From an uncultured Bacteroidia bacterium (GTDB lineage: Bacteria; Bacteroidota; Bacteroidia; Bacteroidales; Prolixibacteraceae): 64,000 bases of DNA. Position 1 is the first letter of the stretch; each line of letters begins with the position of its first letter. Positions 6,142-57,807 of this stretch are shown here, piece by piece. A model generated the notes under the pieces. That model searched no databases. It had not been told where the DNA came from and saw nothing but the letters and a program-made list of their open reading frames with translations. Position numbers and translations under genes: made by a program. Where the stretch lies: contig CAIVGL010000060.1 in NCBI GenBank assembly GCA_903905505.1, positions 1-64,000 on the forward strand, written 5' to 3'.

Positions 6142-8271
6142 TTATTTGCGTTTATTCAAGAAATCAATTAAAGCAGCGGGGTCATCGGTTTGAATTCCAT
6201 CGGTGCCCCACTGGATAATTTTCTCCCATTCGGCAGGTGTCCCTTGTTTCTCATCAACAAAAACTTTAGCCTTTATCGCATGAGCTGATTTTACAAAGCT
6301 CTCGCTAAGTTGTTTCATATCGCTTGCAAGTATTCGTGGTCGAAATAACTGCTCAACCTCCGCAATGTTTTTTTCAGGACCTGGATCTGGCGTGGCCACA
6401 CATTTATAACATAAATCTTGAAGCTCTTTAATGATTTCAACCTGAGAGGCTGGGATATACCAAATGATATCCCTTTCCATATCGTATTTATGGATGATCC
6501 GAAGGAGCTCAGGAACTAAAGGCTCTTTAAGGTCGAGGTAGATGCCAATCTGGCCACGACACAACTGTAAGATATCTTCAATGCTTGGGATTCTCGTATT
6601 TTTCCATTCGGGACCTAACCGTTCGCCAATATCTAATTTTTTGATCTCTTCAAGGGTAAAATCTTTTACCTTTCCAGTTTTTCCAATCACATAGCGATCC
6701 ACATCAGCATTGTGCACACTAACGATACGTCCATCTTTTGTTGCTCGGGTGTCGATCTCCACAAAGTCACATCCCAGATCAATCGCCTTCTGAATCGCCT
6801 CTAATGAATTCTCAGGGATGCCAATATGGGCTCCTCGGTGCGCAATGACATACGTATTCCCGTGCTTGGGTTTGCGAAAATAATCTTTAACTTTTGCTTG
6901 TTCCGATCCACTTGAATTTTTTGAAGTGCTCCATTCGGGAACGGCTTTAAGTGCGTCCATAAAATTGTGGATCACATCAGTATGACAGTCTTCAACCCAA
7001 CCACCTTCTCTAAGCCAATGCCACTCTCCCGTCTGATCACAAACTACCCCATCCTCGCGGATAAAATAAGTAATCCACGAAAGTGTTCGAAAGGCCATAT
7101 CACGATATTTCTCCCCGCCGCCTGCAGCATAAAACATGGCTGTTACAGCACCAAAGGTTGAATTAATGCCACCCCAAGCTCGTCTGTCGGTATCCTGCTC
7201 ACCAACACATTTAACACCACCTGGACGATCCATCCCAAAATTCGTTATGGCAAACTGGATGCATAATTCAGCATGCTCTTTCCACTTTGAATCTAGTTTT
7301 TCTTTCTTCTCGATAAGGTATCGTGCCATGTTTAGTGGCGACCAAGCATTGCGATTATTCTCGATCGAATGATCTTCAAAAAATTGAACCCAAAGCGTAT
7401 GCTCCTGATCTTCGGGAGCCTTAAATTGATACTCAATAATCCATGACCATAAAGCCTCACGTGGCTTCTTTAACTCCGAGTAACCCATCTCCAGCAGACT
7501 ATCAAAAAGTCTCAAGATATAAACCATGTTACCACTACGATCGCCCCAAAACTTTCCAGTTATAGCGTCTACCCGAAATGGCCAAGGCGAATGAAGAGCA
7601 TCGCCAGCACGCATATTTTTTGCTAAAACACGGGCATTGTGAATCGCTTGATCCAAATACCGTTTGTCTTTTGTTGTTTTATAAAGTTCCAAAAGGGCAA
7701 ATCCGGCAATACCACCTTTGTCAGGTTCGATGGTATTCTTTCCATAATCCGCATCATTTTGTGCACTCTGCTTTAATGGCCATTCATTGATAATCCCTGT
7801 CGAACGGGTAAAACTTGGATAAGCCCCTTCGTTTGGGGTATTTGCCTCCACGATGAGATAATCACCCATTTTCTTAGCAAAGTCAAGGACTTTGTCATTG
7901 GACTTCCCTTTATACTCCCAATATTTCAAATACGAAATGATACCCATTCCATCTTGAGTGGCGGGGATAAAATCATTCCTGTATGGCTTATACTGTTCAT
8001 TCATAAAAGTAAAACAGACCCATGATGGGTAACCATGGTCGTTGATCGGAGCTTTTAGAAACCAATTCATCTCGCGCTCCAAGGCATTATCCCAGGTCGT
8101 CCAGGGAGTTAGCTTGGGCTCCTTTTTATTCTCATCATAGATCGCATCGTGCCATCCAATTTTCGAAGGGAGGTAATTAAAGGTGTCCTGAGCTTCTGCA
8201 GTCGAATGGCCTACCATTGAACAGATAGCAAGGACTGCAGCAACGAACAAGTTTCTAGATGAATAAATCAT
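6142..8271 (-). CDS. Six-hairpin glycosidase-like domain fused to a GDPD domain
   Basis: A two-domain exported protein of 709 residues with a signal peptide of about 27 residues. Residues 30-455 are rich in Trp, Tyr and helical segments and look like an (alpha/alpha)6 six-hairpin glycosidase; I do not recognise the family. Residues 473-709 form a glycerophosphodiester phosphodiesterase domain with the full active-site set H478-R479 (AHRG), E505 and D507 (EID) and H520 (VHN). GDPD enzymes hydrolyse phosphodiesters such as glycerophosphodiesters and teichoic-acid units. In this locus the protein might remove a phosphodiester substituent and trim the exposed glycan, which is inference. No frameshift separates the two parts. 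It ends 11 bases before GH29 copy B. The gap upstream (8272-8320) holds no clear promoter. Confidence 0.8.
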   Translation of the reverse strand: MIYSSRNLFVAAVLAICSMVGHSTAEAQDTFNYLPSKIGWHDAIYDENKKEPKLTPWTTWDNALEREMNWFLKAPINDHGYPSWVCFTFMNEQYKPYRNDFIPATQDGMGIISYLKYWEYKGKSNDKVLDFAKKMGDYLIVEANTPNEGAYPSFTRSTGIINEWPLKQSAQNDADYGKNTIEPDKGGIAGFALLELYKTTKDKRYLDQAIHNARVLAKNMRAGDALHSPWPFRVDAITGKFWGDRSGNMVYILRLFDSLLEMGYSELKKPREALWSWIIEYQFKAPEDQEHTLWVQFFEDHSIENNRNAWSPLNMARYLIEKKEKLDSKWKEHAELCIQFAITNFGMDRPGGVKCVGEQDTDRRAWGGINSTFGAVTAMFYAAGGGEKYRDMAFRTLSWITYFIREDGVVCDQTGEWHWLREGGWVEDCHTDVIHNFMDALKAVPEWSTSKNSSGSEQAKVKDYFRKPKHGNTYVIAHRGAHIGIPENSLEAIQKAIDLGCDFVEIDTRATKDGRIVSVHNADVDRYVIGKTGKVKDFTLEEIKKLDIGERLGPEWKNTRIPSIEDILQLCRGQIGIYLDLKEPLVPELLRIIHKYDMERDIIWYIPASQVEIIKELQDLCYKCVATPDPGPEKNIAEVEQLFRPRILASDMKQLSESFVKSAHAIKAKVFVDEKQGTPAEWEKIIQWGTDGIQTDDPAALIDFLNKRK

Positions 8272-26025: not shown

Positions 26026-27021
26026 TCATTTTTTCGTATCATTGGAATAGACCAGCCCCCAAGGTTTACGAATCCGATCCATAAGCTCCATGATCTGTAT
26101 CGATTCGTCGAGTGGCATAAACGGTGACTCTTTTAATCCGAGTCGTAGGCATCGCATAACCTCTTCGGCCTCATAGTTAAGCGCATTGCCCACTATTGGT
26201 TCTTCTAAAACGGCCTCCTCGACTTTATTAATCACCAAGGTGGCCTTGGTGGGAACGGCAAAGACATCATCGATTTTGATGTACCCTTTGGTGCCCAAGA
26301 CATAAGCCTCATTGGATGCTGCTGTTCTCAAAGCAAACGAGAGATCGGCCATCTCACCTTGGTCATATTTAAAAATCGCCACCCCTTGTTCGTCTGAACC
26401 CCAATCCCCAATATGACTTAGGCCGATCACCTCGACAGGAAATTTCTGATAGATCATCGATGCAAACGAGATCACATAAATACCCACGTCGAGCAAGCTG
26501 CCACCACCTAGATCAGGGTTTAGCTGACGAGCTCCAGGGGGGAACTCACCCCGTGCACAACGGGAGGCTTTCACCATTCGAACCTCCCCAATACGACCAT
26601 CGGCTATCCATCCCTGCACTTTTTTCATCAGAGGGACATGACGCGTAATCATTGCTTCCATCAGGAAAACATTCTGTTCGCGCGCCACACGCACCATCTC
26701 TCTAGCTTCAGCTGCATTGATGGTCAAGGCCTTTTCGCACAATACCGCTTTCCCCTTCAACATACACATCACGCTATTTTCGAGATGAAAAGTATGTGGA
26801 GTGCCGATGTAAATAACATCGATATCGGGATCGTCAGCAAGCTCTTGATAGCTCGAATAAGCTTTTGGAATTTTATATTTTTCTGCAAATTGATTAGCCG
26901 AATCAGCAGTCCGTGAAGCCACGGCTGCCAAATCGGCCTCTGGCAGGATCGCCAAAGCATCGGCAAACTTCTTTGAGATATGTCCAGTACCCAGAATACC
27001 CCATCTTATTTTATCGGTCAT
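26026..27021 (-). CDS. Gfo/Idh/MocA-family oxidoreductase
   Basis: A 331-residue cytoplasmic NAD(P)-dependent sugar oxidoreductase. The Rossmann motif GILGTGHIS is at about 8-16. The family EKP motif reads E96-K97-A98 (CEKALT), with Ala where Pro is usual; the catalytic Lys is kept. The C-terminal alpha/beta domain carries GGGSLLDVGIY. Family members oxidise or reduce sugars, inositols and glycosides, and the product cannot be told from sequence. The gene lies 12 bases after a GH92 gene and about 100 bases before GH78. It is only distantly related to the second family member at 45702-46706. Confidence 0.88.
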   Translation of the reverse strand: MTDKIRWGILGTGHISKKFADALAILPEADLAAVASRTADSANQFAEKYKIPKAYSSYQELADDPDIDVIYIGTPHTFHLENSVMCMLKGKAVLCEKALTINAAEAREMVRVAREQNVFLMEAMITRHVPLMKKVQGWIADGRIGEVRMVKASRCARGEFPPGARQLNPDLGGGSLLDVGIYVISFASMIYQKFPVEVIGLSHIGDWGSDEQGVAIFKYDQGEMADLSFALRTAASNEAYVLGTKGYIKIDDVFAVPTKATLVINKVEEAVLEEPIVGNALNYEAEEVMRCLRLGLKESPFMPLDESIQIMELMDRIRKPWGLVYSNDTKK

Positions 27022-41699: not shown

Positions 41700-44072
41700 T
41701 TATTTCTTACGTTGACTAAGTTCTTCCATGGCAAAATTAGGATACAGCACATCGTGTACCTTTTCAACCGTAATGTACTTCGGAAGATTAAAAGAGGCAT
41801 TCAATTTAATGTCTTTAGAGGAGGCACCAATGCGAACTTGATAGTCGCCCTTGTCGGCAATCCAAGCACTAACGCCGCTGTGGAATGAGGCTAATAACCG
41901 AGAGTTTAAGACAAAGAATAACGTCTGACTTTCCCCTGGTTGCAATAACTTTGTCTTTGCAAATCCTTTAAGTTCTTGAACTGGTTTCTCAAGATCCTGA
42001 GAAGGGGCCGAAAGATAAAGCTGCACGACCTCTTTACCGGCTACTTGTCCGCTATTTTTCACGGTAACGCTTACCGTAATCGGACGCACATACGTTGAGC
42101 TGCTTAAGGTTATGTTACTATATTCAAATGTGGTATAAGATAGTCCGTAACCAAACTCATACGATGTAGGCACTTTAAACGTGTCGTAATAACGATAGCC
42201 AACATAGATGCCTTCTTTGTAAAATGAGTTCACTGGGTTGTCTGCTGGCTCTCCGGGGAAGGTTGATGCTGAAGGGACATCACTATATTTCAGTGGGAAT
42301 GAATCAGGTAGTTTACCCGATGGATTAACAGCGCCTTTAAGCACATCAGTAATGGCATCACCACCCTCTTGACCAGGCTGCCAAGCTAGAAGTATAGCAT
42401 CAGGCATGCTTTTCCAACTTGCAGTCTCGCACACACCGCCTACATTTAAGACCACCACAACTTTTTTACCCGCTTGGTGATAGACATCGCAAACATTTTT
42501 CACCAGTTCAACCTCTGCCGTTGAAGTTGGGATATAGCCATTTTCATAATTTTCGCCTCCCGAACGACCGAGTGTGATCACAGCCACATCCGTTAAGGCC
42601 ACTTGTTTTTTAATATCCTCGATAGTCATGGGCATCTCCTCATGAAAAGGGATTAGCCGCTTCTTAAAATGACCAGGTGCTTTATTCGTCTTTACGCCAT
42701 TATCGGCAAGCATCTTCGGGGTCATGAAATAATCAGGAACAAGATTATTTTCCATGATCGAAGCATTAAAAGCGGTGTACGAATCTTCCAGTTCTTTGAT
42801 CACGTTAAAGCCCGCATTTTTCAATCCATCGTTCACCGAGGTGGCATATTTATTACTGCGAATACCTCCGCTGCCTGTTCCGGCCTCAATCAAATAATAG
42901 GATATCTTACCAAAGACAGCCACATTCTTAACGGCATTAAACGGAAGTGCTTGTTTCTCATTTTTCAATAAGACTAGCCCTTCGCCAGCTGCCTCACGGG
43001 CTAGTTTGGCATGAGCAGCCAAGTCAGGTTTAAACGTAGGAATATACCCTTTCGCTCTCGGAGCGTCTAACTTCTGCTGTAAGTTATAGACGAGATTTCT
43101 GTTCAACATAGATTCATCAAGCGATTTATCTTTCAAGGCAGCTGTAAGCTCTTTAACCTCATCTTTACTGCCACCCATCAGCATATTATTCCCTGCACGC
43201 ACTTTGGCGACAGCACTTCCATAACCATCAAAATCGGTCATGTAAACCCCTTTAAAGCCCCACTCTTTGCGAACGACATCCTGCAGAAGCTCTAGATTTT
43301 CAGCTGCATAGTATCCATTTACTTTATTATAAGAGGTCATGATGGATTTAGGATTCCCCTCGCGCACGGCAATCTCAAACCCTTTCAGGTAGATCTCGCG
43401 CAAGGCACGCTGGCTGATCACGGCGTTATAAGTCCGTCGATTGGTCTCCTGGTTGTTACCTAAGAAATGTTTTATGCAAGCGCCAATGCCATTCGATTGT
43501 AATCCTTTAACCACTGATGCGGCCATCTTGCCAGAGAGCATAGGATCTTCGGAATAGTATTCAAAGTTCCGACCGCAGTTCGGATTTCGGTGTAAGTTAA
43601 GGGCTGGCATTAAAACCATGTCGTAATCGTAAGTTAGCACTTCATTACCAAATGCCTGTCCCACTTGTTCCATAAGCTCAAGGTTCCAGGTTGCAGCCAG
43701 ACAAGTTGAAGTTGGGAATGCCGTTGCATAGGTATAATCATTCGCTCCTGCTGGATGTGGATCTCTATTGACCCCTGAAGGACCATCAGTCAAAGGCGAT
43801 GATGGGATCGCAAGACGAGGAATCATAAGCTGAGAATTCTGATTCGCAATAATAATTCCTGTCCCCTGCTCGATATTTTTTACTTGTGCCGCCGGCAGAA
43901 ATTTACCATCGCCCACAGAGAGCCCAATCTTTTCGTCGGATGTCATCGCGGCAATAACTTTCTCTATTCGGTCTTTACCAAACTGAGGCAGATGATTATC
44001 GGAGCAGCTCTGAGCGGCAAAGAGTGAAGGGAGGACCATCGTCAATCCAAGAACTAGATTTTTAAGTTTCAT
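41700..44072 (-). CDS. GH3 glycosidase, probable lipoprotein
   Basis: A 790-residue GH3 enzyme. The N-terminal signal ends at AAQSC, giving a likely lipidated C23. The catalytic TIM-barrel domain contains KHFLGNNQETNRR and the nucleophile D280 in YMTDFDG. The second domain (GLVLLKNEKQALPF onward) and an Fn3-like C-terminal domain (VTVKNSGQVAGKEV) complete a standard three-domain GH3. It has no PA14 insert, unlike the GH3 at 37956, and the two are not close relatives. It probably acts as a beta-glucosidase or related exo-enzyme. It lies 10 bases after the membrane-protein gene and 9 bases before the MBL gene. Confidence 0.92.
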   Translation of the reverse strand: MKLKNLVLGLTMVLPSLFAAQSCSDNHLPQFGKDRIEKVIAAMTSDEKIGLSVGDGKFLPAAQVKNIEQGTGIIIANQNSQLMIPRLAIPSSPLTDGPSGVNRDPHPAGANDYTYATAFPTSTCLAATWNLELMEQVGQAFGNEVLTYDYDMVLMPALNLHRNPNCGRNFEYYSEDPMLSGKMAASVVKGLQSNGIGACIKHFLGNNQETNRRTYNAVISQRALREIYLKGFEIAVREGNPKSIMTSYNKVNGYYAAENLELLQDVVRKEWGFKGVYMTDFDGYGSAVAKVRAGNNMLMGGSKDEVKELTAALKDKSLDESMLNRNLVYNLQQKLDAPRAKGYIPTFKPDLAAHAKLAREAAGEGLVLLKNEKQALPFNAVKNVAVFGKISYYLIEAGTGSGGIRSNKYATSVNDGLKNAGFNVIKELEDSYTAFNASIMENNLVPDYFMTPKMLADNGVKTNKAPGHFKKRLIPFHEEMPMTIEDIKKQVALTDVAVITLGRSGGENYENGYIPTSTAEVELVKNVCDVYHQAGKKVVVVLNVGGVCETASWKSMPDAILLAWQPGQEGGDAITDVLKGAVNPSGKLPDSFPLKYSDVPSASTFPGEPADNPVNSFYKEGIYVGYRYYDTFKVPTSYEFGYGLSYTTFEYSNITLSSSTYVRPITVSVTVKNSGQVAGKEVVQLYLSAPSQDLEKPVQELKGFAKTKLLQPGESQTLFFVLNSRLLASFHSGVSAWIADKGDYQVRIGASSKDIKLNASFNLPKYITVEKVHDVLYPNFAMEELSQRKK

Positions 44073-44082
44073 TAGGGCAGTT

Positions 44083-45489
44083 TTAGTTTATTCGTTTTTT
44101 TAGAATCACAAAAGATATCCAGGTGCAATAAATTGCAGAAATAGTAAAGACGAGATGAACAAAGAATCTTCCAAAGATCAGATCGGCAAGCGAAAGTCCA
44201 GTGAGATTCAACAGCTCTGGTTTAAGCGTTAACCGCGAAAATGCCACGATCACGGTCGACCAAATTAAAAGGAGAAACATTCGATGTAAAACATTTGCAT
44301 GCCGCTGCAAATAATAGGTTGCCAAGGCCACAATAGTGGAAGAAGAAAATACAAAGAAAAAACTCGGAGTTAGAAGTGTATTGCTTGGGGAATCAGGATA
44401 GACGCTATCCATCAAATCAATAACTGTATGAGAAAACGTTAATGTTATTGCAATCTGCCAAGCAAGATTAGGATATTGGATGACAGCAATGATCATGATC
44501 AGTCCATAAAAAGCGTAGTTGGAGAGCATCTTTGCCAAATCAGTCCAGTTGACCATTGAGAAATCATGGTTCATCTTTCCGGCGTCCACCACTGGTTCAA
44601 GCCATGCGGAAAAAAACCAAAAGATTAAAAACCCAATAATCAAGGAGCCCAAAAGCTCTATTGTGGTTGTTTTTAGTTTCGAGTCAGGGTATGGGGTATT
44701 TATTTTCGTCTCTGGATCAAGGTCCTGTCGACTAAGCCATGCCGCGCGTCCATAGGCTGCTCCAAGTAATAGTCCGAATGTGAATTCCATCATTTTCCAC
44801 CAACTTTGAAATACACCATCTTTGGGAAGCTGACTGCCTAACACCATCCAAAATCCTCCAAGTCCAAAACCAAGTGCTCCTCCCAAGAGTCCCCAAAGAG
44901 CAAATCGTTTGATCAATTTAAAACTTGCCATCTCTATCTTCGTTCGAAGGTAGAGCAAAAGCACTAAAGAGCCCACGAGTAAGGCAGCCCATGATTCAGG
45001 TCTAGGTTTGGCTGGATCAGAAAAATAGATCACCATCGGCTGATTAATTAATTTGAAGCCGATCAGCATTCCAAGAAGTAATAAGAGTAACGTATAGATG
45101 ATCACTTTCTTAGGCACTCTATGGTAGAGAAGACCTAATCCCATGATAATTCCACCGAGCAAACCCCAGGCTCCCCCTTTTACCGTCGTGCCAATTGTGC
45201 CCCACCAAACGGTTTCTGGATGTCTTAAAAATCCAAGAGTTTGTCCATAAGTCATCTCTCCTCCTAGGCCAATGCCAACAACACTAAACACCGCAAACAT
45301 AGCCGCAACGGCTGGAGGAAGATCCAGCAATAACGAGAGACTTATGGCAACCATTGCACCTGGAATCATTGCCCCAAATGGCCCACCTCCGATATATCCT
45401 CTTAATCCCCAGCCTAATAGCATGGCGATTGCAGGAAATACGATAAAATGCCATTGGGAATAGATCGATTTTTTATTTTCAGCTTTCAT
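44083..45489 (-). CDS. Polytopic membrane protein of unknown function
   Basis: A 468-residue protein with about 12 hydrophobic helices that I do not recognise as a known transporter family. The first third is very Gly-rich, with GGGPFGAMIPGA near residue 35, GIGLGGEMTYGQT near 72 and GGAWGLLGGIIMGLG near 106. A soluble acidic loop lies near the middle (RQDLDPETK) and a second half of five or six helices follows. There is no signal peptide and no catalytic motif. It is 10 bases upstream of a GH3 gene, and a 212-base gap separates it from the Gfo/Idh/MocA gene. Import of a sugar or oligosaccharide is a reasonable guess from position only. Confidence 0.75.
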   Translation of the reverse strand: MKAENKKSIYSQWHFIVFPAIAMLLGWGLRGYIGGGPFGAMIPGAMVAISLSLLLDLPPAVAAMFAVFSVVGIGLGGEMTYGQTLGFLRHPETVWWGTIGTTVKGGAWGLLGGIIMGLGLLYHRVPKKVIIYTLLLLLLGMLIGFKLINQPMVIYFSDPAKPRPESWAALLVGSLVLLLYLRTKIEMASFKLIKRFALWGLLGGALGFGLGGFWMVLGSQLPKDGVFQSWWKMMEFTFGLLLGAAYGRAAWLSRQDLDPETKINTPYPDSKLKTTTIELLGSLIIGFLIFWFFSAWLEPVVDAGKMNHDFSMVNWTDLAKMLSNYAFYGLIMIIAVIQYPNLAWQIAITLTFSHTVIDLMDSVYPDSPSNTLLTPSFFFVFSSSTIVALATYYLQRHANVLHRMFLLLIWSTVIVAFSRLTLKPELLNLTGLSLADLIFGRFFVHLVFTISAIYCTWISFVILKKRIN

Positions 45490-45701: not shown

Positions 45702-46706
45702 TTACAAATTCACCACTTCACCAGTCTGTGCTGATTTATAGGCGGCGTCAACGATATCCAAAATGATTTGTCCCACTTCAAGTCCAGGAACTGGCTGCTT
45801 GCGTGTGACGATGCAATCGACAAAATATTCCATTTGTCGATTATACATCGTTGGGTCGCAATGTTCAGTTCTGACAGGCAAGTTAGGCTCAAATTTTTCT
45901 GGTGTATTGTCAACTTTATATTTTAGATAAGTCGGAAAAACATTGGCATACCCTTTTGTCCCATAGATGCCAGTTGCGGCTTCGGGACCATCCATATGAG
46001 GCTGCCACCATCCACTTTCAATTAACGACTCAGCGCCATTATCCCACGAGATTAGGATAATACCAGAATCATCAACATCGTAGCTCCCATAATGTGTTCC
46101 GATCTTTGCATATACTTTTTTGGGTAGCGGATCACCGATAATGTACCGTGCAGTATCGATAGCATGAACGCCCATGTCGGCGAGAGCACCCCCGCCAGCA
46201 AGCTCTTTCTGAGCAAACCATCCAGCAGGACCCCAATTTTCATGAATCGCATACCCTTTAGTCTTAACAATTTTACCAATCCGACCTGAGTCAACGGTCT
46301 GCCTAACAAAATTGACATCGTTGTCGAAGCGCCACATATGACCCACCATCACCAGCTGTTTGGTCGCATCTGAGACTTTTTTAATCTCAACACCTTCACC
46401 GCCATTCATCGCCATTGGCTTTTCTAGAAAAACATCCTTGCCATGGTTCAGAAATTCGATGGTATATGGAGCATGAAACTTATTCGGAGTCGAGATCACT
46501 ACCGCATCAAGATCTTTGCGATCATATAGGGTGGTGACATCAGTAGTAGCCTCTGCGATATTGTATTTATCAGCAAATGCACGAGCCGTCTCGATGCGTG
46601 CTGCAACTACAGCTACGATCTCAACATTAGGCAAAAGCTGCAAGCCACGCGCATGGTAATGATTGATATATCCAGCACCAATAAGTGCAATTTTTATTTT
46701 TTTCAT
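45702..46706 (-). CDS. Gfo/Idh/MocA-family oxidoreductase beside an aminotransferase
   Basis: A 334-residue cytoplasmic NAD(P)-dependent oxidoreductase. The Rossmann motif ALIGAGYINHYH begins at about 7, the EKP motif is intact (E95-K96-P97), and GALADMGVHAIDTARY supplies the family Asp and His of the active site. It lies 30 bases downstream of a DegT-type aminotransferase. Such pairs occur in kanosamine and inosamine pathways, where the dehydrogenase makes or reduces the keto sugar that the aminotransferase uses. Here the surrounding genes are catabolic, so the pair may run toward removal of an amino group; that is inference. A 212-base gap follows downstream (45490-45701) in which I see no strong promoter or terminator. 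Confidence 0.9.
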   Translation of the reverse strand: MKKIKIALIGAGYINHYHARGLQLLPNVEIVAVVAARIETARAFADKYNIAEATTDVTTLYDRKDLDAVVISTPNKFHAPYTIEFLNHGKDVFLEKPMAMNGGEGVEIKKVSDATKQLVMVGHMWRFDNDVNFVRQTVDSGRIGKIVKTKGYAIHENWGPAGWFAQKELAGGGALADMGVHAIDTARYIIGDPLPKKVYAKIGTHYGSYDVDDSGIILISWDNGAESLIESGWWQPHMDGPEAATGIYGTKGYANVFPTYLKYKVDNTPEKFEPNLPVRTEHCDPTMYNRQMEYFVDCIVTRKQPVPGLEVGQIILDIVDAAYKSAQTGEVVNL

Positions 46707-46736
46707 ACTCCAGTTTCGAACTAAAAAGAATTGAAA

Positions 46737-48014
46737 TTAAAGACTTTCAGCGTTGTCGTAAACTTTGCGAATTGCTGTAGCAAGTAGGTCCATGTCGGCT
46801 TTAGTTCCCATTAAAACTTTATGATGAATACAGGCTGATGCTTCAAAATGAATCTTATCACAAACCGGAAGATCAAAACGTGTTGGATCAATTGCTGCCC
46901 AATATTCTGGATTTAACTTATGACGTGAAGGTTTTGTATGAGGCTGATAAAGGGAGCATTTATTTAGTGGGATATAACTAGCCACCACTTCAATACCGAT
47001 CTCGGCAGTCAGAGCGGATCTAAATTTTGCAACCGGCAATCCTTTGAATTCTGCCTGATTGTATCTAAATGAGAAGTTGAAATACGCCTCTTTCGTTTCG
47101 CGTGCATCTCTTCTGATTGGCGTAATTCCAGGCATCGAGGCTAGAAGGGAGTTCAAGTAAATTCCATTCTCATCTCTCACCCGATTTTGTTCTGGCAACC
47201 GTTTAAGACCTTCAATTAATATCGCAGCTTGAAACTCTGTGATTCGGAAGTTTCCAGACTGGCAGAAGTTACCTGCATCAAAATAGAGTCCTTCACCTTT
47301 ATCTCCTTGTGCTGCACTTGCGGGCTCTGGTCGACGACCACAGTTACGCAGTGCATCTAATTTTTCGTAAAGTTCAAAACTATTGGTCGTCACGGTACCA
47401 CCTTCACCAGCAGTAAGATGTTTTGACAACTGATAGCTAAAGCTTCCAATATCGCCTATGGTTCCAGCTTTTTGGCCATTCCATTCACCACCATGCTTAT
47501 GAGCACAATCTTCAATCACAAAAAGATTATGTTTCTTAGCGATACGCATAATCTCATCCATATCGGCAAAACTGCCATAAAGATGAACTGGGATGATCGC
47601 TTTAGTGCGTGGAGTGATGGCTTTCTCAACCTCTTTCGGATCGATACACCAGGTATCTTCGCAAACATCCACCAAAATTGGAGTCGCATTGACATCAATA
47701 ATTGTTGCCGCCGTAGCTTGCCAGGTAAGGCCTGGAAGAATGACTTCGTCACCTACACCGATCCCACAAGCTTCCAAAGCCATTTGTAAGGTTACCGTAC
47801 CATTAGCTGCTGAAATTGCATATTTAGCACCCATCTCTTTGGCGAAATTCTTATTAAACTCGGTCTCTTTTGGTCCATTGTACGACCAGACTCCGCTATT
47901 TAAAACTTCGATCAGGGCTTTTTCTTCATTCTTGTCCCAAACAGGCCACTTCGGCCAAGGATTAACTTTCGTGTCACGAACAGGCGAACCTCCAAGAACT
48001 GCTAACTTTGTCAT
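46737..48014 (-). CDS. DegT/DnrJ/EryC1/StrS-family PLP aminotransferase
   Basis: A 425-residue PLP-dependent sugar aminotransferase-like protein. The Schiff-base Lys is K198 in SYQLSKHLTAGEGG. The PLP-ring Asp is D169 in IEDCAHKHGG, where family members usually read EDAAQAHG. GLTWQATAATI near 95-105 forms the cofactor pocket. Family members add an amino group to keto sugars or keto cyclitols with Glu or Gln as donor. It is followed 30 bases later by a Gfo/Idh/MocA oxidoreductase and preceded by an MFS sugar transporter and a ROK kinase. No nucleotide-sugar biosynthesis genes accompany it, which argues for free or phosphorylated sugar as substrate. Confidence 0.9.
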   Translation of the reverse strand: MTKLAVLGGSPVRDTKVNPWPKWPVWDKNEEKALIEVLNSGVWSYNGPKETEFNKNFAKEMGAKYAISAANGTVTLQMALEACGIGVGDEVILPGLTWQATAATIIDVNATPILVDVCEDTWCIDPKEVEKAITPRTKAIIPVHLYGSFADMDEIMRIAKKHNLFVIEDCAHKHGGEWNGQKAGTIGDIGSFSYQLSKHLTAGEGGTVTTNSFELYEKLDALRNCGRRPEPASAAQGDKGEGLYFDAGNFCQSGNFRITEFQAAILIEGLKRLPEQNRVRDENGIYLNSLLASMPGITPIRRDARETKEAYFNFSFRYNQAEFKGLPVAKFRSALTAEIGIEVVASYIPLNKCSLYQPHTKPSRHKLNPEYWAAIDPTRFDLPVCDKIHFEASACIHHKVLMGTKADMDLLATAIRKVYDNAESL

Positions 48015-48077
48015 ACTAATAGGGTATTAAATTTTATATACTTAGACTTTTAAATCTGATTTTACTTATCGATAAAC

Positions 48078-49334
48078 TTATTTTTTGGCAAACAAACTTT
48101 TCAAGGTAAACGTCTGATTGTTCACCAACGGTTTAGCCCAGAAACTTAGGCTTAAGATATAACCTAGGGTCACGAAGATAAAGAGCATTCCTACTCTAAG
48201 CGATACCGCATCACTAATGGCTCCAATCAGTAGCTGTACAATAGCACCTCCTGCAATACCAGTCATTAGAATTCCTGCGAAGGAACCATGGTGTTTCGGC
48301 ACTGAGTTTAGACCTAACGAAACGATTACCGGGAACATCACCGATAGGAAGAATCCCGACATCGGGAAGGACCACAACGAGGTCTGAACATCTGCGAATA
48401 AGCCAATCGCCACACAAATCATAGCGAGGATGGTAAACCACCGTAAGATTGGTTTGCTATCGTAAAGTTTCATCAACACAAGCCCTAACATCCCGCCGAT
48501 AGTCATAAGTCCCCAGAAGTAGGACACTGCATCAGCACCAGCTACATCAGGATTTACATCATGATAGATCTTCAAGAATTTCGACATCCAATAGGAGATT
48601 CCTTGTTCAGAACCTACATAGGCGAAGATGCCTAAGAAATAAAGGATCACATATTTATTTTTAAATAGTTCGAGGTAGCTATCTTTTGACCCAACTTTTT
48701 CATCGTCCTGCAATTCAACTTTAGGAAAACGAACAAAGGAAATCAAGGCAACCATCAGGATAGCAATTAGTGCAAAAGCCCAATACACCGAGACCCATGA
48801 CATCGCTTTAGGGACCAAGCTGGTCATCAGCCCAATAAATGGCTTGCTCACATTTCCCGCATCGATATTCGTTACAAAATAAGTATACATCTGAGGACTA
48901 ATAAAAGAGGCTAATCCGAAAACTAACTGACCCATTACCGAGTTAAAAGCGTAGTTTACTTCGCCTCCCGAAACGCGCAATAGTGGATTAATAACCACTT
49001 GCAAAGCCGCCATTCCTGAGCCAATGGTAAACAGGGAGACAATAAACACATTAAAGGTTGGGAATTGGGCAAAACCCAAGGCTCCAATAAAAGCGAGTAA
49101 GAATGCTGAGATAATCATTTTCTTCTCTCCGTATTTCTCAGCCAGAAACCCAAATGGGATAGACATCACACCATACGCAATAAAAAATGCAAATGGCAGC
49201 AATCCCGCCATGGTCTCATTCAACGTAAAGCTTTGCGAGACTTTGTCGTTCAGAGCCCCTAAGATGTTCGTGAGAAATGAGATCACAAAAAAGACGAACA
49301 TGATTAGGACGACCAAAAAAATATTTCTTTTCAT
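48078..49334 (-). CDS. MFS sugar:proton symporter, FucP/GluP type
   Basis: A 418-residue inner-membrane transporter with 12 predicted helices. The N-terminal half follows the FucP/GluP pattern: an acidic LNDKV after the first helix, FAFFIAYGVMSIPFGFLAEKYGEKK across helices 2-3 in short conserved pieces, and GLALN-like Gly-rich helices later. Family members import fucose, glucose or galactose with protons. In this locus the likely cargo is a monosaccharide freed by the exo-enzymes: fucose (two GH29), mannose (five GH92) or an amino sugar (GH2). It lies 10 bases after the ROK kinase gene and 63 bases before the aminotransferase gene. The cargo cannot be decided from sequence. Confidence 0.88.
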   Translation of the reverse strand: MKRNIFLVVLIMFVFFVISFLTNILGALNDKVSQSFTLNETMAGLLPFAFFIAYGVMSIPFGFLAEKYGEKKMIISAFLLAFIGALGFAQFPTFNVFIVSLFTIGSGMAALQVVINPLLRVSGGEVNYAFNSVMGQLVFGLASFISPQMYTYFVTNIDAGNVSKPFIGLMTSLVPKAMSWVSVYWAFALIAILMVALISFVRFPKVELQDDEKVGSKDSYLELFKNKYVILYFLGIFAYVGSEQGISYWMSKFLKIYHDVNPDVAGADAVSYFWGLMTIGGMLGLVLMKLYDSKPILRWFTILAMICVAIGLFADVQTSLWSFPMSGFFLSVMFPVIVSLGLNSVPKHHGSFAGILMTGIAGGAIVQLLIGAISDAVSLRVGMLFIFVTLGYILSLSFWAKPLVNNQTFTLKSLFAKK

Positions 49335-49344
49335 TTATTTATAG

Positions 49345-50268
49345 TTAGTTACAGTTTCTAAAGACTAAAGATGCAGCTCCCATGCATCCAGCATTGTTTC
49401 CTAGGGTAGCTCCAATAACATCCGTAAATACGGAACAATCTGGCATTGCATAACTGAAAGTTGACTTCTTGATCATGTCGATATAGAACTGACCAGCTTC
49501 CGAAATGCCACCTCCAATAACCACTTTTTGAGGGGCGAAGGTATTCACAAATGAGGCGATGCCATGACCAAGGTAATCGGTATGCTCTTCCATACATTGA
49601 ACAGCAGCAGGCTCACCAGCATGAAATTTCTCAACAATTATGATCCCATTTATAGTCTCCTCAGGCAGACCGGAAAGCTCAGCATATCGCTGTATTAAAG
49701 CTGAAGTAGAAGCATACGCCTCCAAGCAACCTCGGCCGCCACAATTACAGTCTACACCTTTATGATCAACCGTAAAATGGCCTAGCTCGGCTCCTCTATT
49801 TTTATATCCGCCATAAAGCTGACCATTCATTACGATAGCACCACCGATGCCTGTTCCAACCGTGATAAAGATTACATCGGTACAATTTTGTGCCGCACCA
49901 AATACCGTTTCGCCTAGTCCCATAACATTCGCATCATTATCGGCAAAAACGGGAAGACTAAACTCTTTTGAGAAGATCTCGCCTAGTGGAACGTTCGACC
50001 AGCCATTTAAATTATCGGCTCCTCCAATGACCACCCCATCGTAGATGATTCCTGGTGATCCGATGCCAATACCGGACAACTGGTTTCCTTGCTCATCGGC
50101 AAAAGCCTTTATATTTTGAATCGCCTTTTTAAGTGTGTTTAAGATATCATCACGAGTAGCTTTTGAGCCAATCTCCAATTTATCTTTATAGGGGATCTTG
50201 CCATCTTCTGAGACAAGGGCGAACTTCACAAATGTGCCCCCTAGGTCAATCCCTGCAGCATATCTCAT
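49345..50268 (-). CDS. ROK-family sugar kinase
   Basis: A 307-residue cytoplasmic ROK protein without an N-terminal DNA-binding domain, so a kinase and not a repressor. The phosphate loop GIDLGGTFVK is at 6-15, the catalytic Asp is D112 in DNDAN, and the zinc site consists of H164 (ELGH) and C174, C176 and C181 in CNCGGRGC. ROK kinases phosphorylate glucose, mannose, fructose, N-acetylmannosamine or allose at the 6-hydroxyl. Located 21 bases downstream of the GH2 gene and 10 bases upstream of the MFS gene, it probably traps the sugar that the transporter brings in. Mannose and amino sugars are both compatible with the context. Confidence 0.9.
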   Translation of the reverse strand: MRYAAGIDLGGTFVKFALVSEDGKIPYKDKLEIGSKATRDDILNTLKKAIQNIKAFADEQGNQLSGIGIGSPGIIYDGVVIGGADNLNGWSNVPLGEIFSKEFSLPVFADNDANVMGLGETVFGAAQNCTDVIFITVGTGIGGAIVMNGQLYGGYKNRGAELGHFTVDHKGVDCNCGGRGCLEAYASTSALIQRYAELSGLPEETINGIIIVEKFHAGEPAAVQCMEEHTDYLGHGIASFVNTFAPQKVVIGGGISEAGQFYIDMIKKSTFSYAMPDCSVFTDVIGATLGNNAGCMGAASLVFRNCN

Positions 50269-50289
50269 CGTACTTAATATAATTTAAAA

Positions 50290-52986
50290 TTATTTTATGA
50301 CTTGCTTATCCACATTCCATCCTCTAACTTCAAGGACAGGCTTAGCTCCGTTTGAATCGGAAAGGAAATAACTTGCCTCGTAAGTGCGTTCTTCTCCTGG
50401 CAATAAAGTAACATAATTATCGTTCCAATAGATCGGCAAGATCGGCAGCTTCGTAGCTGGATTTAACACATCAAGAAACATAAAAAAGGCAATGGTCGAA
50501 GTCGGATTTTTCACCTTTAAACTAATTTTTCCAAACTTACCATCTTGTGCGTAAGAGTACGTGTAACCTAATTTTATCTTAGGAAGTTTGTCTAATGCGG
50601 TATAGTCAGCAAACTGGCTAGTTGGCGTATAGAATGGCCACGATAGTTTCTTATAGGCTTCGTAATCTAAAACATCTTTTTTCTCCGATAGCCAATAGAT
50701 ACTGTTATCAACTTCTTTGTTATTCTTGTCGTAGATCCTTAGATCAAGAAACCATACTGCGGTAAGATTTTTTATCGCAGGAATCTTATAGATAAACTTC
50801 GAGATATTTGATTTAACATCACCTTTCCATTGATCGGCAAAAATCTCTTTCGAATTCAGATCAAAGATTCGAACCTTCACCGTAAGCCCTTTTGCTTCTA
50901 GTAAATCCTCATTCGCTAAATAAATATCGTTAAAGCCATATCGATAAATCGCATGAAGTGGAGCACAACCCTTCTTGACACCATAAAACGAACCATTCGG
51001 CTGCAGATAAGTATCATAAAGCTGCCAGATCATCTTCGGCCATGCAGAGTTAAGTTGCCATTGCACCAATCCGGTACTCTTTGGCTTATGCGCCACAAAC
51101 GCCTCAAACTGAGGTCTCATGATCTCGTAATTATTTAGCTGTGCCTTATACGAGAACTCCTCAACACTCGAAGATTTGCCATATCTGCTATTAATGGCGT
51201 TGATATCCCGATCTAGCGAAGTAAACTCATTCCGGCCAGTATGATATTCCCAATAGGTCTTATCGATTGGCCATAAGCTAGCTTCCGGAAGCATCTTTTT
51301 CAAAGAAGCAAGAGGTGGGATCGTAGCACCTGGACAAGTCTCGGTATTAAAGCCCCATGCACCTCCAAGCTTGGTGTCGGTAAACCAGTAATGAGGAGGC
51401 GTCCAAGCATAAGGACCCATCATCTTCATCCCTGTTGGACCACTAATATCGCTAACCAATGGCACTGTTGCAACTACGTTATTTTCTTCTGTTCCAGCAC
51501 CTCCAGCAGAGGTTGTATAAGGTCGCGAAGGATCGTATTTCTTAAATAGCTCCACATATTTCAGCTCTAATTTCGGCGATGGAAGTTTATCGCTTCCCAA
51601 CATCCACAGGTAGATACTTGGGTGATTACGCAACCAGAGCATCTGATCTTTCCATGAATCGGAGAGCAAAGCGATATCTTCATCGTTTACAGCGCCGCCA
51701 TATTTCTCGTGACAGGTCTTGTGCAGATACTCCTCCCATTCCCAGATGCAGTTATATCCGATCATAATTAAGATTCCATACTCATCGCACAGGTCAAAAA
51801 GATTTTCATCTTTACCCCAGAACCCTTCGCAACGAATACTATTTAAGTTCATATGACGGATGTATCGCAATTGAGCCTCGACCGATTTACGGGTATCGCG
51901 CAAGAAAATATCATCAGCCCAACCGCCACCTTTAACCAGGATAAACTTGCCATTAATTTCAAAAGCTCTGTTCTTATCTTTATTCAGATAACTGCGCATC
52001 TCACGGATACCATACTTCTTATCGATCTGGTCAATCACCTTATTCTCAGCGATAAAAGAAGTTTTTAGATTGTACATCTTCGCATTACCCATTCCATTAG
52101 GCCACCAAAGCTCCACGTTTTTAACTTTTAGCTGCGGATATTCCTCCGGTGTAAATCGGTAGGACAATGTCTCGCCAGCTTTAACACTGACTTTCTTCTC
52201 GACTGCACCAAGCTCATAATTCACACGTAGCACGCCGTCAATGGCATGTGCCGTACTATTCACAAGCTCAGCCTGAATATAGAGATTAGCATTTTTCTTG
52301 GTCACCGTATCCACTTTGGAATATACAAATGGACTTCGGATCTTTAATCCTTCATTAATCTCCAAGAAGACTTCCCGGAAAATTCCCATGCTTCGATCAG
52401 AAGGAATCGGATTCCAGTCGCAAAACCCAAGTGAATATTCACCATAAGCGTATTGCGTAAGTTTTAAAGCCATGGTATTCTCCCCTTCATGTACAAAGGC
52501 ATTTACATTAAAGGTAAACATGCGATAGGTCCCCGCAAAAGCATCTTTCCCGACAACTTTCTTGCCATTGATCCAGAGGTCTGCACGATAGTTGATTCCG
52601 TTAAAATGGAGGGAGATATTTTTTGAGATATCGGTGCCATCGAGTTTAAAGGTTGTTCTAAACCACCAAGGTTTCTGGAATTGAACCGTATCCATGTTTT
52701 TCATGTTGATCCCAAAGGTTGGATCTTCAATCACATGTTTTAAGGCTAAACTACCTAATACGGTCCCTGGAACAACGGCGTCATACCAAGTTTTTGTATT
52801 AAAATTAGTTTTTGAGATCAAAGACTCATCAAGCTTTCCAAGCTTTTCTGATGCCTGCATCTTCCAGTTTTCAGAAATTGTGGTCACCTTATATGAGGAG
52901 CTCTTTTCAGCATTGCTACTCAACGAAGCAACGAAAGTAAACGTACTGAAAAGCAATAGGACAATCTTAAAGTTTAGTTTTTTCAT
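50290..52986 (-). CDS. GH2 exo-enzyme of the exo-beta-D-glucosaminidase type
   Basis: An exported GH2 enzyme of 898 residues. I start it at the ATG at 52986, which begins a clean signal peptide of about 26 residues; a TTG four codons upstream (52998) is less likely. GH2 domains run in order: sugar-binding jelly roll (35-215), Ig-like (220-330), TIM barrel (about 335-640) and C-terminal beta domains. The acid residue is D466 in LGSDKLP, in place of the NE pair of ordinary beta-galactosidases and beta-mannosidases, and the nucleophile is E549 in FNTETCPG. This matches the exo-glucosaminidase (CsxA) clade. It is the first gene of the long operon. Substrate could be glucosamine, mannose or a modified hexosamine. 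Confidence 0.88.
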   Translation of the reverse strand: MKKLNFKIVLLLFSTFTFVASLSSNAEKSSSYKVTTISENWKMQASEKLGKLDESLISKTNFNTKTWYDAVVPGTVLGSLALKHVIEDPTFGINMKNMDTVQFQKPWWFRTTFKLDGTDISKNISLHFNGINYRADLWINGKKVVGKDAFAGTYRMFTFNVNAFVHEGENTMALKLTQYAYGEYSLGFCDWNPIPSDRSMGIFREVFLEINEGLKIRSPFVYSKVDTVTKKNANLYIQAELVNSTAHAIDGVLRVNYELGAVEKKVSVKAGETLSYRFTPEEYPQLKVKNVELWWPNGMGNAKMYNLKTSFIAENKVIDQIDKKYGIREMRSYLNKDKNRAFEINGKFILVKGGGWADDIFLRDTRKSVEAQLRYIRHMNLNSIRCEGFWGKDENLFDLCDEYGILIMIGYNCIWEWEEYLHKTCHEKYGGAVNDEDIALLSDSWKDQMLWLRNHPSIYLWMLGSDKLPSPKLELKYVELFKKYDPSRPYTTSAGGAGTEENNVVATVPLVSDISGPTGMKMMGPYAWTPPHYWFTDTKLGGAWGFNTETCPGATIPPLASLKKMLPEASLWPIDKTYWEYHTGRNEFTSLDRDINAINSRYGKSSSVEEFSYKAQLNNYEIMRPQFEAFVAHKPKSTGLVQWQLNSAWPKMIWQLYDTYLQPNGSFYGVKKGCAPLHAIYRYGFNDIYLANEDLLEAKGLTVKVRIFDLNSKEIFADQWKGDVKSNISKFIYKIPAIKNLTAVWFLDLRIYDKNNKEVDNSIYWLSEKKDVLDYEAYKKLSWPFYTPTSQFADYTALDKLPKIKLGYTYSYAQDGKFGKISLKVKNPTSTIAFFMFLDVLNPATKLPILPIYWNDNYVTLLPGEERTYEASYFLSDSNGAKPVLEVRGWNVDKQVIK

Positions 52987-53036
52987 TCCAGGAATCAAGT
53001 TTATTTATATTTTGATAATCAATAAAATACAGCGAA

Positions 53037-53273: not shown

Positions 53274-53975
53274 CTAGCCCTGTTTGCTAATCTTCTTAAG
53301 CTGTTCTAGATCAATGATTTTAATCTTTCGTCCATCCATGGCAATAACCTTTTCGGCAACAAATATGGAGAGTGTTCGAATGGCATTAGAGGAGGTCATA
53401 TTCGAAAGGTTGGCCAAGTCTTCACGAGGAAGATAGACTCGTAGCGTTTGATCATCATGTTCAAATCCATATTTCTCAATTAAGAGCAATATCGATTCAG
53501 CCAGTCGGCCGCGGATATGTTTTTGGGTTAAACTAACCGTTCTGTGGTGTGAAAAACCAAGTTCTATGGCAAGATCTTTAAGAAGTGCGAGTGCAAAATC
53601 GTGATTCCGCAACAACACATCATATAAAATAGCAGGGGGTATTGTGATGATCTCAGAGTTCTCAATCGCAATGGTGGTCCCATTATGCGCTTCGCCAGCA
53701 ATCAAGGAGCGGTAACCGATTAATCCATTCCGAGGAATCATTCGAATGATCTGATCACGACCACCAATGCCCTCTTTTATCAGCTTAACCATCCCCTCTT
53801 TTAGGTACTGCATCCCAATTGGCAACTCCCCTTCCCGGTAGATGAATTCGTTCTTCTTGTAGTGCCTTATTTCATGCGACTCTTCGAGAATAGCTTTCTC
53901 TGCAGGGGTCAAAAGATTAAATATACAATCCTCCTTAGCAAATTGAACCTCATAGAACCGACCAGCCTCTGCCAT
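53274..53975 (-). CDS. Crp/Fnr-family transcriptional regulator
   Basis: A 233-residue regulator with an N-terminal cyclic-nucleotide-binding-like domain (about 15-130; FIYREGE and GLIGYRSLI mark the beta-roll) and a C-terminal Crp-type helix-turn-helix (about 150-215, YLPREDLANLSNMTSSNAIRTLSIF). No Fnr-type Cys cluster is seen, so it is unlikely to bind an iron-sulfur centre. Ligand and targets are unknown. It lies 52 bases downstream of nadE on the same strand and 287 bases upstream of the glycan operon, which is also transcribed leftward. It could regulate that operon, but closeness alone is weak evidence. Confidence 0.9.
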   Translation of the reverse strand: MAEAGRFYEVQFAKEDCIFNLLTPAEKAILEESHEIRHYKKNEFIYREGELPIGMQYLKEGMVKLIKEGIGGRDQIIRMIPRNGLIGYRSLIAGEAHNGTTIAIENSEIITIPPAILYDVLLRNHDFALALLKDLAIELGFSHHRTVSLTQKHIRGRLAESILLLIEKYGFEHDDQTLRVYLPREDLANLSNMTSSNAIRTLSIFVAEKVIAMDGRKIKIIDLEQLKKISKQG

Positions 53976-57048: not shown

Positions 57049-57807
57049 TTACAACTTGCGGATTTTTATGTTGCGGTACCAAACATCGTTACCATGATCT
57101 TGGAAACCAATCACACCCGCCTTAGCTACGTTTGCCCAGTCAGGATTGTAGGTTGGAAACTTAGAGTTCTTCACTAACTCATTCCACTCTGGAGTCCAAA
57201 GGTGATACTCAAGTACGGTAGCGCCATTCATCTTATGAACGATAGTCCCTTGATACGAGATAATCTCAATACTGTTCCACTCACCTGCAGGTTTTGCATT
57301 TTGTGGTTTCGCTGGAATAAGATCATACAACGACCCAGCCTGACGATTACCATCCTTGCCTAACATCGCATCTGGATGACGATCGTTATCCAACACTTGC
57401 ATCTCAGGGGCAGTTCTCCAGATCTCTTTGCCAGGAATCTCCTGTGCTAAATAAAAGATCCCTGAGTTACCACCTTCTGAAATTTTCCACTCAGCTTTAA
57501 AAGCAAAGTTTGTGAATTTTTCTTTGCCATAAACTAAATCGCCACCATTTACAGAGCCAGCTTCTCCATTACCAGAACCTTTTAAATGGATCGCTCCATC
57601 CACAATATTCCAGTCACCAGGGAAAGTGGTTTTGTTATAACTTCTCCACCCTTCTGACGTCTTACCATCAAAAAGTAAAACATAACCTTGCGCCTTCTCT
57701 TGAGGCGTTAAGGTGTTAATCGCACCTTCTTGCGTCGACTGTGCAACAGCGGGGGTACCAAAAATAAAACAAACAGAAACAAGTAAAACTAAAAATGTAC
57801 TTTTCAT
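57049..57807 (-). CDS. DUF1080 (3-keto-glycoside hydrolase-like) exported protein
   Basis: A 252-residue exported protein with a signal peptide of about 22 residues (AVAQ). It is one DUF1080 concanavalin-like domain: GYVLLFDGKTSEGW near 40, WKISEGGNSGIFY near 105, EMQVLDNDRHPD near 135, GEWNSIEI near 180, and the closing GFQDHGNDVWYRNIKIR. DUF1080 proteins include enzymes that cleave 3-keto glycosides made by Gfo/Idh/MocA oxidoreductases. No oxidoreductase is adjacent, but two lie in the glycan operon 11 kb and more away. It is a single-gene unit bounded by a terminator and a long upstream region. Confidence 0.9.
   Translation of the reverse strand: MKSTFLVLLVSVCFIFGTPAVAQSTQEGAINTLTPQEKAQGYVLLFDGKTSEGWRSYNKTTFPGDWNIVDGAIHLKGSGNGEAGSVNGGDLVYGKEKFTNFAFKAEWKISEGGNSGIFYLAQEIPGKEIWRTAPEMQVLDNDRHPDAMLGKDGNRQAGSLYDLIPAKPQNAKPAGEWNSIEIISYQGTIVHKMNGATVLEYHLWTPEWNELVKNSKFPTYNPDWANVAKAGVIGFQDHGNDVWYRNIKIRKL

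Follow-up and report, generated by a model that had tools for sequence, protein, structure and literature searches.

A window of 64,000 nucleotides, comprising positions 1 to 64,000 of contig CAIVGL010000060.1 from an uncultured member of the Prolixibacteraceae, contains a run of five adjacent genes that on balance appears to constitute an amino-sugar utilisation operon, providing for release, import, transamination, reduction by a Gfo-type enzyme, and phosphorylation. This reading is built on features taken directly from sequence, namely the five genes themselves, the GH2_16 residues of the glycosidase, the catalytic residues of the Gfo/Idh/MocA oxidoreductase (Gfo), the linkage of GH2 and DegT genes, and the lack of recurrent biosynthetic genes.

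Organization and recurrence of the gene cluster

The five genes are transcribed from the same strand in the order GH2, ROK, MFS, DegT and Gfo (Table 1). Gaps of 21, 10, 63 and 30 bases in the list of open reading frames agree with the spacing of 10–63 bases reported in the initial annotation, and the family names given there were matched in Pfam and NCBIfam searches. It had also described the run as free of nucleotide-sugar genes, and none lie inside it. A scan of the locus for promoters and terminators gave no excess over shuffled sequences.

Table 1. Genes of the cluster and its flanks, with coordinates in the window.
Gene	Coordinates	Strand	Predicted product	Domain matches	Remarks
GH2	50290-52998; 50290-52986 from the in-frame ATG	-	GH2_16-type exo-beta-glucosaminidase	Ig_GlcNase PF18368 and GH2 domains	TTG start; in-frame ATG at 52986
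ROK	49345-50268	-	ROK sugar kinase, glucokinase-like	PF00480, E 4e-75	
MFS	48078-49334	-	MFS monosaccharide importer, GluP/FucP group	PF07690	
DegT	46737-48014	-	DegT-family PLP aminotransferase	PF01041, E 2e-93	
Gfo	45702-46706	-	Gfo/Idh/MocA oxidoreductase	PF01408, PF22725	
Membrane protein	44083-45489	-			Follows cluster in 11/79 loci; accessory
GH3	41700-44072	-	GH3 glycosidase	PF00933/PF01915	Downstream; kept in 13/79 loci
Regulator	53274-53975	-	Crp/Fnr-type regulator	PF00027, PF13545	Upstream; 6/79 loci

Orthologues of the DegT gene were collected from 80 genomes (Bacteroidota, Planctomycetota and one spirochaete), and neighbourhoods were counted over 79 loci; many of these come from close relatives (Arenibacter, Prolixibacteraceae), which makes the counts non-independent. 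Numerous bacteria from the sea and from lakes carry the gene set. Conservation of the five-gene order, which the initial annotation had proposed as a check, is seen in relatives, and of 74 loci in Bacteroidota and Planctomycetota where this could be judged, 73 have a GH2 gene together with DegT; in Planctomycetota the two genes are divergent, but still in one locus. Because the order is kept and the linkage of GH2 and DegT is so regular, chance grouping can be excluded. A full-length Gfo reading frame accompanies DegT in 66 of the 79 loci, and is missing next to it in about seven loci of sufficient length. Importers are common, with an SSS gene in 43 loci and an MFS gene in 22, and a SusC-like gene (recognised by its N-terminal sequence only) is found in 30; ROK is present in only 26, and 14 have a HAD hydrolase after Gfo. 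GH92, raised earlier as a possible companion of the five genes, is not a fixed one and lies within five genes in 10 of the 79 loci. At the spirochaete locus the DegT-Gfo pair is instead located behind an ABC sugar importer. A GH18-deacetylase-GT2 fusion adjoins one DegT locus.

No glycosyltransferase, epimerase, nucleotidyltransferase or nucleotide-sugar genes recur among the 25 commonest families listed for the 79 neighbourhoods. Together with the importer-linked context this favours the catabolic reading of the initial annotation, which had named residence of the DegT-Gfo pair mainly in polysaccharide-biosynthesis clusters as evidence against it; this orthologous group shows no such residence.

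Of the flanking genes, that encoding the membrane protein has no match in Pfam or NCBIfam. The GH3 enzyme may serve in accessory glycan trimming, and a tie between the Crp/Fnr-type regulator and the cluster is weakly suggested.

The glycosidase, importer and kinase

The GH2 protein matches CsxA (2vzs) at 480 bits and beta-mannosidase at 120 bits, and alignment shows that it retains the residues corresponding to CsxA E394, S468, D469 and E541. GH2_16 enzymes are distinguished by replacement of the NE acid/base motif by SD, and of the pocket His by Glu (PMC12243196). Serine and aspartate occupy positions 468/469 in the window GH2 and in 66 of 66 DegT-linked GH2s, whereas nearby paralogous GH2s have E. 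Glu is likewise found at E394 and at the nucleophile E541 in all 66, although at E394 it does not discriminate on its own, being also present in seven of eight paralogues. We take E394 to be the pocket Glu of the published criteria. A beta-mannosidase identity was rejected on both the scores and the residues, with SD and Glu replacing the NE motif and pocket Trp, and the initial assignment to the exo-glucosaminidase type stands by the same criteria (PMC12243196).

One loop, GPYDYVPP, reads GPYAWTPP in the window GH2, which differs from CsxA in loop 515-521; in the DegT-linked enzymes as compared with unlinked control GH2s, D517 is replaced by Ala in 62 of 65 sequences and V519 by Thr in all 65. 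Linked and unlinked sequences also separate in a GH2 tree, albeit with low support (0.14). The N-terminus is hydrophobic and was taken by eye for a signal peptide, from which a periplasmic location is predicted; a beta-linked amino sugar in terminal position is the likely product of the enzyme.

The MFS protein scores 112, 96 and 64 bits against the gluP, fucP and NagP models of NCBIfam, every one under its cut-off, and 92 bits against the FucP structure 3o7p. An SSS sodium symporter takes its place in Flavobacteriia and Planctomycetota (SSF E 3e-81 at locus L089). The top model for the kinase is TIGR00744 (ROK glucokinase), for which its 218 bits do not reach the cut-off of 260, and it scores 173 bits against the glucokinase structure 2qm1; it would work like a hexose kinase.

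The closest known parallels to this part of the cluster are the chitosan utilisation loci with CsxA-type GH2_16 enzymes. The GH2 subfamily is the same by its residues, and related MFS and ROK genes lie beside GH2_16 in chitinase-containing loci, but the window cluster adds DegT and Gfo, has no chitinase near, and differs in the loop described above. Control GH2_16 loci that have no DegT orthologue carry GH18 or GH20 with a related MFS and another ROK, and GH2, MFS and ROK can therefore serve glucosamine alone. NagB is present in the source genome, and a search of it detected neither GH18 nor GH46. A search for GH19 found no match anywhere, control loci included, and so carries no weight. Since NagB is present, GH18 was not detected and the control loci often have chitinases or hexosaminidases, DegT and Gfo appear to be an addition that serves some other amino sugar. 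A simple chitosan locus is not favoured, as the genome search detected neither GH18 nor GH46 and the control loci differ, and loss of NagB was dismissed as a reason for a bypass because the gene is there.

These data bear on a route for glucosamine itself, in which GH2 would free glucosamine, DegT would act at C2 to give 2-keto-glucose, Gfo would reduce this to glucose or mannose, and ROK would add the 6-phosphate, so that neither glucosamine kinase nor NagB is needed. The subfamily is one of glucosaminidases (PMC12243196), all of its residues are kept here, the relatives of Gfo include C2-acting 1,5-anhydrofructose reductases, and ROK is glucokinase-like. We nevertheless consider this route unlikely, given that control loci manage with MFS and ROK alone, that NagB is in this genome and no GH18 or GH46 was detected in it, and that linked GH2s have a loop of active-site type unlike that of the unlinked ones.

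The aminotransferase and oxidoreductase

Among solved structures, DegT matches 5w70, 5w71 and 2c7t best (304-310 bits), all others scoring 188 or less, and its nearest relatives there are glutamine:2-deoxy-scyllo-inosose aminotransferases. By this comparison the predicted enzyme is nearest to those whose substrate is a free ring ketone (2-deoxy-scyllo-inosose) and not a nucleotide sugar. The catalytic Lys is putatively placed in the motif SKHLTAGEGG, in keeping with the family. No aminocyclitol biosynthesis genes are among the recurrent neighbours of the orthologues (25 commonest families listed, 79 neighbourhoods).

The best NCBIfam model for Gfo is inositol 2-dehydrogenase (IolG), at 163 bits against a curated cut-off of 355, which it does not reach; UDP-GlcNAc 3-dehydrogenase follows at 136 bits, also under cut-off. 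K96 of the EKP motif, and D177 and H181 of the D-x3-H motif, are invariant across 25 orthologues. The predicted model (pLDDT 87.5) is nearest to structures of DgpA1, aldose-aldose oxidoreductase, KanD2 and GenD2, and the structure search agrees on the family, returning C3-acting relatives as well as C1- and C2-acting ones.

An inositol-type compound linked to a glycan (an inosamine), and not a hexosamine, could in principle be the substrate of the pair, as the relatives of DegT and the top model for Gfo might indicate. We regard this as highly improbable: the Gfo score is far from the cut-off, inositol-catabolism genes are unrecognised among annotated neighbours, and the linked GH2 and hexose-type kinase indicate a pyranose. 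GDPD neighbours and the inositol-like scores had prompted both this idea and that of a GPI-anchor source. GH2 enzymes cleave beta-linkages and the glucosamine of GPI is alpha-linked, and the GPI source was set aside on this ground and because no inositol genes were recognised.

Pairs of these two families are familiar from biosynthesis. KanD2 and GenD2 act ahead of 3''-amination in aminoglycoside synthesis. In KanS2/KanD2 and GenS2/GenD2, DegT and Gfo proteins act on a non-nucleotide sugar, and the Gfo model matches the KanD2 and GenD2 structures; the window DegT is presumed to resemble KanS2 and GenS2. Those pairs serve biosynthesis and are encoded in antibiotic clusters, whereas here the pair is found with a glycosidase and importers. 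In the NtdABC/KabABC systems of Bacillus, too, C3 of a glucose derivative is modified by a PLP aminotransferase and a dehydrogenase (PMC8788734), but these systems use glucose 6-phosphate and have no GH2 in the described operon. An NtdABC-type operon was rejected, there being no phosphatase in the window run and only 108 bits between NtdA structures and the window DegT.

Biosynthesis would run from imported glucose, phosphorylated or free, through Gfo oxidation at C3 and DegT amination, the product being kanosamine (3-amino-glucose) or some other amino sugar; Bacillus ntdCAB/kabCAB and aminoglycoside synthesis are precedents, and GH2 would be incidental or would activate a stored glycoside. 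Its enzymatic logic matches KabC/KabA and NtdC/NtdA (PMC8788734) and KanD2, and the HAD hydrolase found after Gfo in some loci recalls the phosphatase of the kab/ntd operons. We think it quite improbable, however, since the steadiest partner of the pair is a glycosidase of the amino-sugar-freeing type, accompanied by importers and SusC-like genes, since NtdA is so distant, and since no glycosyltransferase or nucleotide-sugar genes recur among the families listed.

GnnA and GnnB, which provide UDP-2,3-diaminoglucose for lipid A, belong to the Gfo and DegT families, and their substrates are UDP-sugars. These GlcN3N synthesis genes are present in a member of the Bacteroidota, Capnocytophaga canimorsus, the lipid A of which contains beta-1',6-linked GlcN3N (PMC3342949). 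One candidate activity for the window pair is their chemistry in reverse, with a free sugar as substrate; the pair differs in that theirs are UDP-sugar reactions and lipid A genes are unrecognised near the cluster.

Proposed pathway and its implications

In the utilisation pathway that we propose, the periplasmic GH2_16 enzyme would cleave the beta-linkage of an amino sugar in a glycan, and the MFS carrier, or the SSS symporter in other lineages, would move the freed sugar into the cytosol. DegT would transfer the amino group from the imported sugar to a keto acid and leave a ring ketone, which Gfo with NAD(P)H would reduce to an ordinary, neutral sugar (glucose, or glucosamine if there are two amines) for phosphorylation by the operon ROK or a housekeeping kinase. 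The chemistry would be of the KanS2/KanD2 or GnnB/GnnA kind, in the removing direction and on the free sugar. The presence of ROK in so few loci suggests that DegT and Gfo take the sugar in free form and turn it into a common one. Both reactions are reversible, and direction is not readable from sequence; we infer it, along with the order of steps, an unphosphorylated substrate and the carbon that bears the amine. The initial annotation had the sugar oxidised and then transaminated, an order that is probably reversed, as catabolically DegT must act first to give the keto sugar that Gfo reduces.

The released sugar is likely an unusual one. An amine at C3, as in 3-amino-glucose or the 2,3-diamino-glucose of some lipid A, is favoured over one at C2, as in glucosamine. 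GH2_16 enzymes recognise a C2 amine, and glucosamine or a 2,3-diamino sugar fits this better than 3-amino-glucose does. More tentatively, the cluster may represent a widespread catabolic pathway in which a specialised GH2_16 clade frees a 3-amino or 2,3-diamino hexose and a KanS2/KanD2-like pair, running in the removing direction, de-aminates it in free form to glucose or glucosamine for central metabolism, a candidate source of the diamino sugar being the backbone of lipid A from other bacteria. A literature search that covered few subscription journals found no relevant publication on catabolism of kanosamine or 3-amino-glucose, or on DegT in glycan-use loci, and no account of this gene set among the papers covered.

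If this is correct, free-living glycan degraders would gain carbon and nitrogen from amino sugars that NagB cannot handle, and the aminotransferase-dehydrogenase pair of antibiotic and lipid A synthesis would have a catabolic counterpart. An automatic label of cell-surface biosynthesis on DegT genes of this kind could then mislead, and GH2_16 beside DegT would be a marker of a glycan of lakes and seas that has been overlooked.

Gene cluster and glycan-degrading surroundings

The window comes from a draft genome (2.9 Mb, 97% complete). Metagenome-derived, uncultured Bacteroidia and Prolixibacteraceae are its near-identical relatives, and it probably belongs among them. The initial annotation recognised a run of five adjacent same-strand genes, encoding a GH2 enzyme, ROK kinase, MFS carrier, DegT aminotransferase and Gfo/Idh/MocA oxidoreductase (Gfo), and this is borne out by ORF coordinates, Pfam and NCBIfam, with intergenic gaps of 21, 10, 63 and 30 bases in the ORF listing. 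Domain searches show that the surroundings, which contain five GH92 genes, GH3, GH78, GH29, a GH28-like protein and a sulfatase, are a large glycan-degrading region. In four of the five GH92 proteins, and in the GH78 protein, the C-terminus bears CHB_HEX_C_1 and PA14 modules.

Features of the cluster and other genes in the window
Feature	Coordinates	Strand	Evidence or remark
GH2	50290-52998 (ATG start at 52986)	-	ORF; Pfam + NCBIfam
ROK	49345-50268	-	ORF; Pfam + NCBIfam
MFS	48078-49334	-	ORF; Pfam + NCBIfam
DegT	46737-48014	-	ORF; Pfam + NCBIfam
Gfo	45702-46706	-	ORF; Pfam + NCBIfam
468-aa membrane protein	44083-45489		no Pfam/NCBIfam match; follows the cluster in 11 loci
3-keto-disaccharide hydrolase domain protein	57049-57807		PF06439; near cluster
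Second Gfo protein	26026-27021		only 26% identity
709-aa protein	6142-8271		C-terminal GDPD domain; weak GH127-like stretch
GH92 (five genes)	within 9992-32981		domain searches

The GH2 enzyme and its unlinked relatives

Among solved structures the window GH2 best matches the exo-beta-D-glucosaminidase CsxA (480 bits over almost the full chain), whereas beta-mannosidases reach 120 bits at most. In subfamily GH2_16 the acid/base NE motif is replaced by a strictly conserved SD and a pocket His by Glu (2025 subfamily study, PMC12243196). Alignment finds the SD motif, this Glu and the nucleophile in the window GH2, and in all 66 alignable GH2s from DegT-orthologue loci (linked GH2s) CsxA positions 394 and 541 are Glu and positions 468-469 are Ser-Asp. 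Membership of GH2_16 is thus well supported by sequence, in keeping with the exo-glucosaminidase type first proposed. In several relatives the operon is followed by a second GH2, whose acid/base position is occupied by Glu.

A survey of 395 genomes of the class found GH2_16 without a DegT orthologue in seven other genomes. Several of these enzymes adjoin GH18/GH20 enzymes, an MFS carrier (42-54% identity to that of the window) or a ROK kinase (only about 25%), and from these loci we conclude that GH2_16, MFS and ROK can form a stand-alone chitin or chitosan module to which DegT and Gfo are an addition. The window's genome encodes NagB; GH18 and GH46 were not detected in it. Only four positions separate linked from unlinked GH2s, two of them in the GPYDYVPP loop: Ala takes the place of Asp517 in 62 of 65 linked GH2s, against an acidic residue in CsxA and the six unlinked enzymes compared, and position 519 is Thr in all 65 and Val or Ala in unlinked ones. 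These differences suggest that linked GH2s may act on another substrate.

The DegT-Gfo pair and the proposed order of steps

DegT scores 304-310 bits against three glutamine:2-deoxy-scyllo-inosose aminotransferases, whose substrates are free six-membered ring ketones, and 188 bits or less against all other structures, nucleotide-sugar enzymes included (108 bits for the kanosamine enzyme NtdA). No curated NCBIfam model matched Gfo above cut-off, the top models being IolG and UDP-GlcNAc 3-dehydrogenase. Lys96, Asp177, His181 and motifs such as HMWRFD and WGPxGWF are invariant among 25 orthologues. A structure search with an AlphaFold2 model (pLDDT 87.5) gave as nearest structures DgpA1, aldose-aldose oxidoreductase, KanD2 with 3''-deamino-3''-hydroxykanamycin A, and GenD2. 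KanD2 and GenD2 oxidise C3'' of an aminoglycoside sugar, enabling amination by a DegT partner. Because of these likenesses of both proteins, the pair resembles such a set, exchanging hydroxyl for amine, or the reverse, on a nucleotide-free sugar.

The catabolic reading of the initial annotation is mostly supported, although its order of oxidation and then transamination is probably wrong, as that would be the biosynthetic direction; we infer instead that DegT precedes Gfo. The GH2 would release an amino sugar in the periplasm and a carrier (MFS in the window) would take it into the cell, where DegT would move its amine to a keto acid, Gfo would reduce the resulting ketone with NAD(P)H, and a kinase would finally phosphorylate the product. 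The component families are already known, but this arrangement and direction appear undescribed, with no account of them in the literature searched.

Conservation of the locus and candidate substrate

A DegT-alignment scan of 84,980 species genomes gave 80 loci (58-99% identity) in Bacteroidota (Prolixibacteraceae, Arenibacter, Zobellia, Maribacter, Kriegella and others), Planctomycetota and one spirochaete. A GH2_16-type GH2 is present at 73; in six of the other seven the contig ends just upstream of DegT, so that among the 80 it is truly missing only from the spirochaete locus. GH2 and DegT are divergent in several Planctomycetota, and their link therefore outlasts rearrangement. Neighbour counts, inflated by loci from close relatives, are 66/79 for Gfo as a full ORF, 43/79 for an SSS sodium symporter, 22/79 for MFS, 26/79 for ROK and about 24/79 for GDPD-type phosphodiesterases; the families that recur in the 79 neighbourhoods include none of the nucleotide-sugar, glycosyltransferase or epimerase kind. 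That ROK occurs at just one locus in three suggests a free sugar as the substrate of DegT and Gfo, and a common product. The recurrent GDPD hints at a substrate bearing a phosphodiester. At one locus (L089:10339-12982) a GDPD phosphodiesterase and a purple acid phosphatase separate DegT and Gfo, and beside another cluster copy lies a 1120-aa protein in which GH18-like, polysaccharide deacetylase and GT2 domains are fused (L066:11533-14892).

Other arrangements were also seen. The Spirochaetales locus (L132:1289-11930), possibly a related catabolic route, combines DegT and Gfo orthologues with an ABC sugar importer, a G1P-dehydrogenase-like protein, two class-III aminotransferases and glycerate 2-kinase, and has no GH2. 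A class relative (7.2 Mb genome) has a DegT of 44% identity directly upstream of GH2_16, a second such pairing (L140:8418-12402), and elsewhere a GH20 hexosaminidase directly precedes a different Gfo-DegT pair (L047:5801-10865; Gfo 26%, DegT 42% identity to the window's). Neutral-ceramidase-like proteins, which one idea would make amino-sugar N-deacylases, adjoin DegT in several loci (e.g. L050:11354-13291), in one lying between GH2 and DegT (L088:1828-3081). L132, L140, L047 and L088 together suggest a broader class of hexosaminidase-linked DegT-Gfo pairs.

By analogy, the amine is more likely to be at C3 than at C2, since known examples of Gfo-DegT pairs on sugars (KanD2/KanS2, NtdC/NtdA, GnnA/GnnB) act at C3 and plain glucosamine requires no such pair. 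A C3 amine, together with a GH2_16 pocket recognising a C2 amine, would therefore indicate a 2,3-diamino sugar. We speculate that the substrate is such a sugar, a known example being the beta-linked 2,3-diaminoglucose of lipid A, present for instance in a member of the Bacteroidota (PMC3342949).
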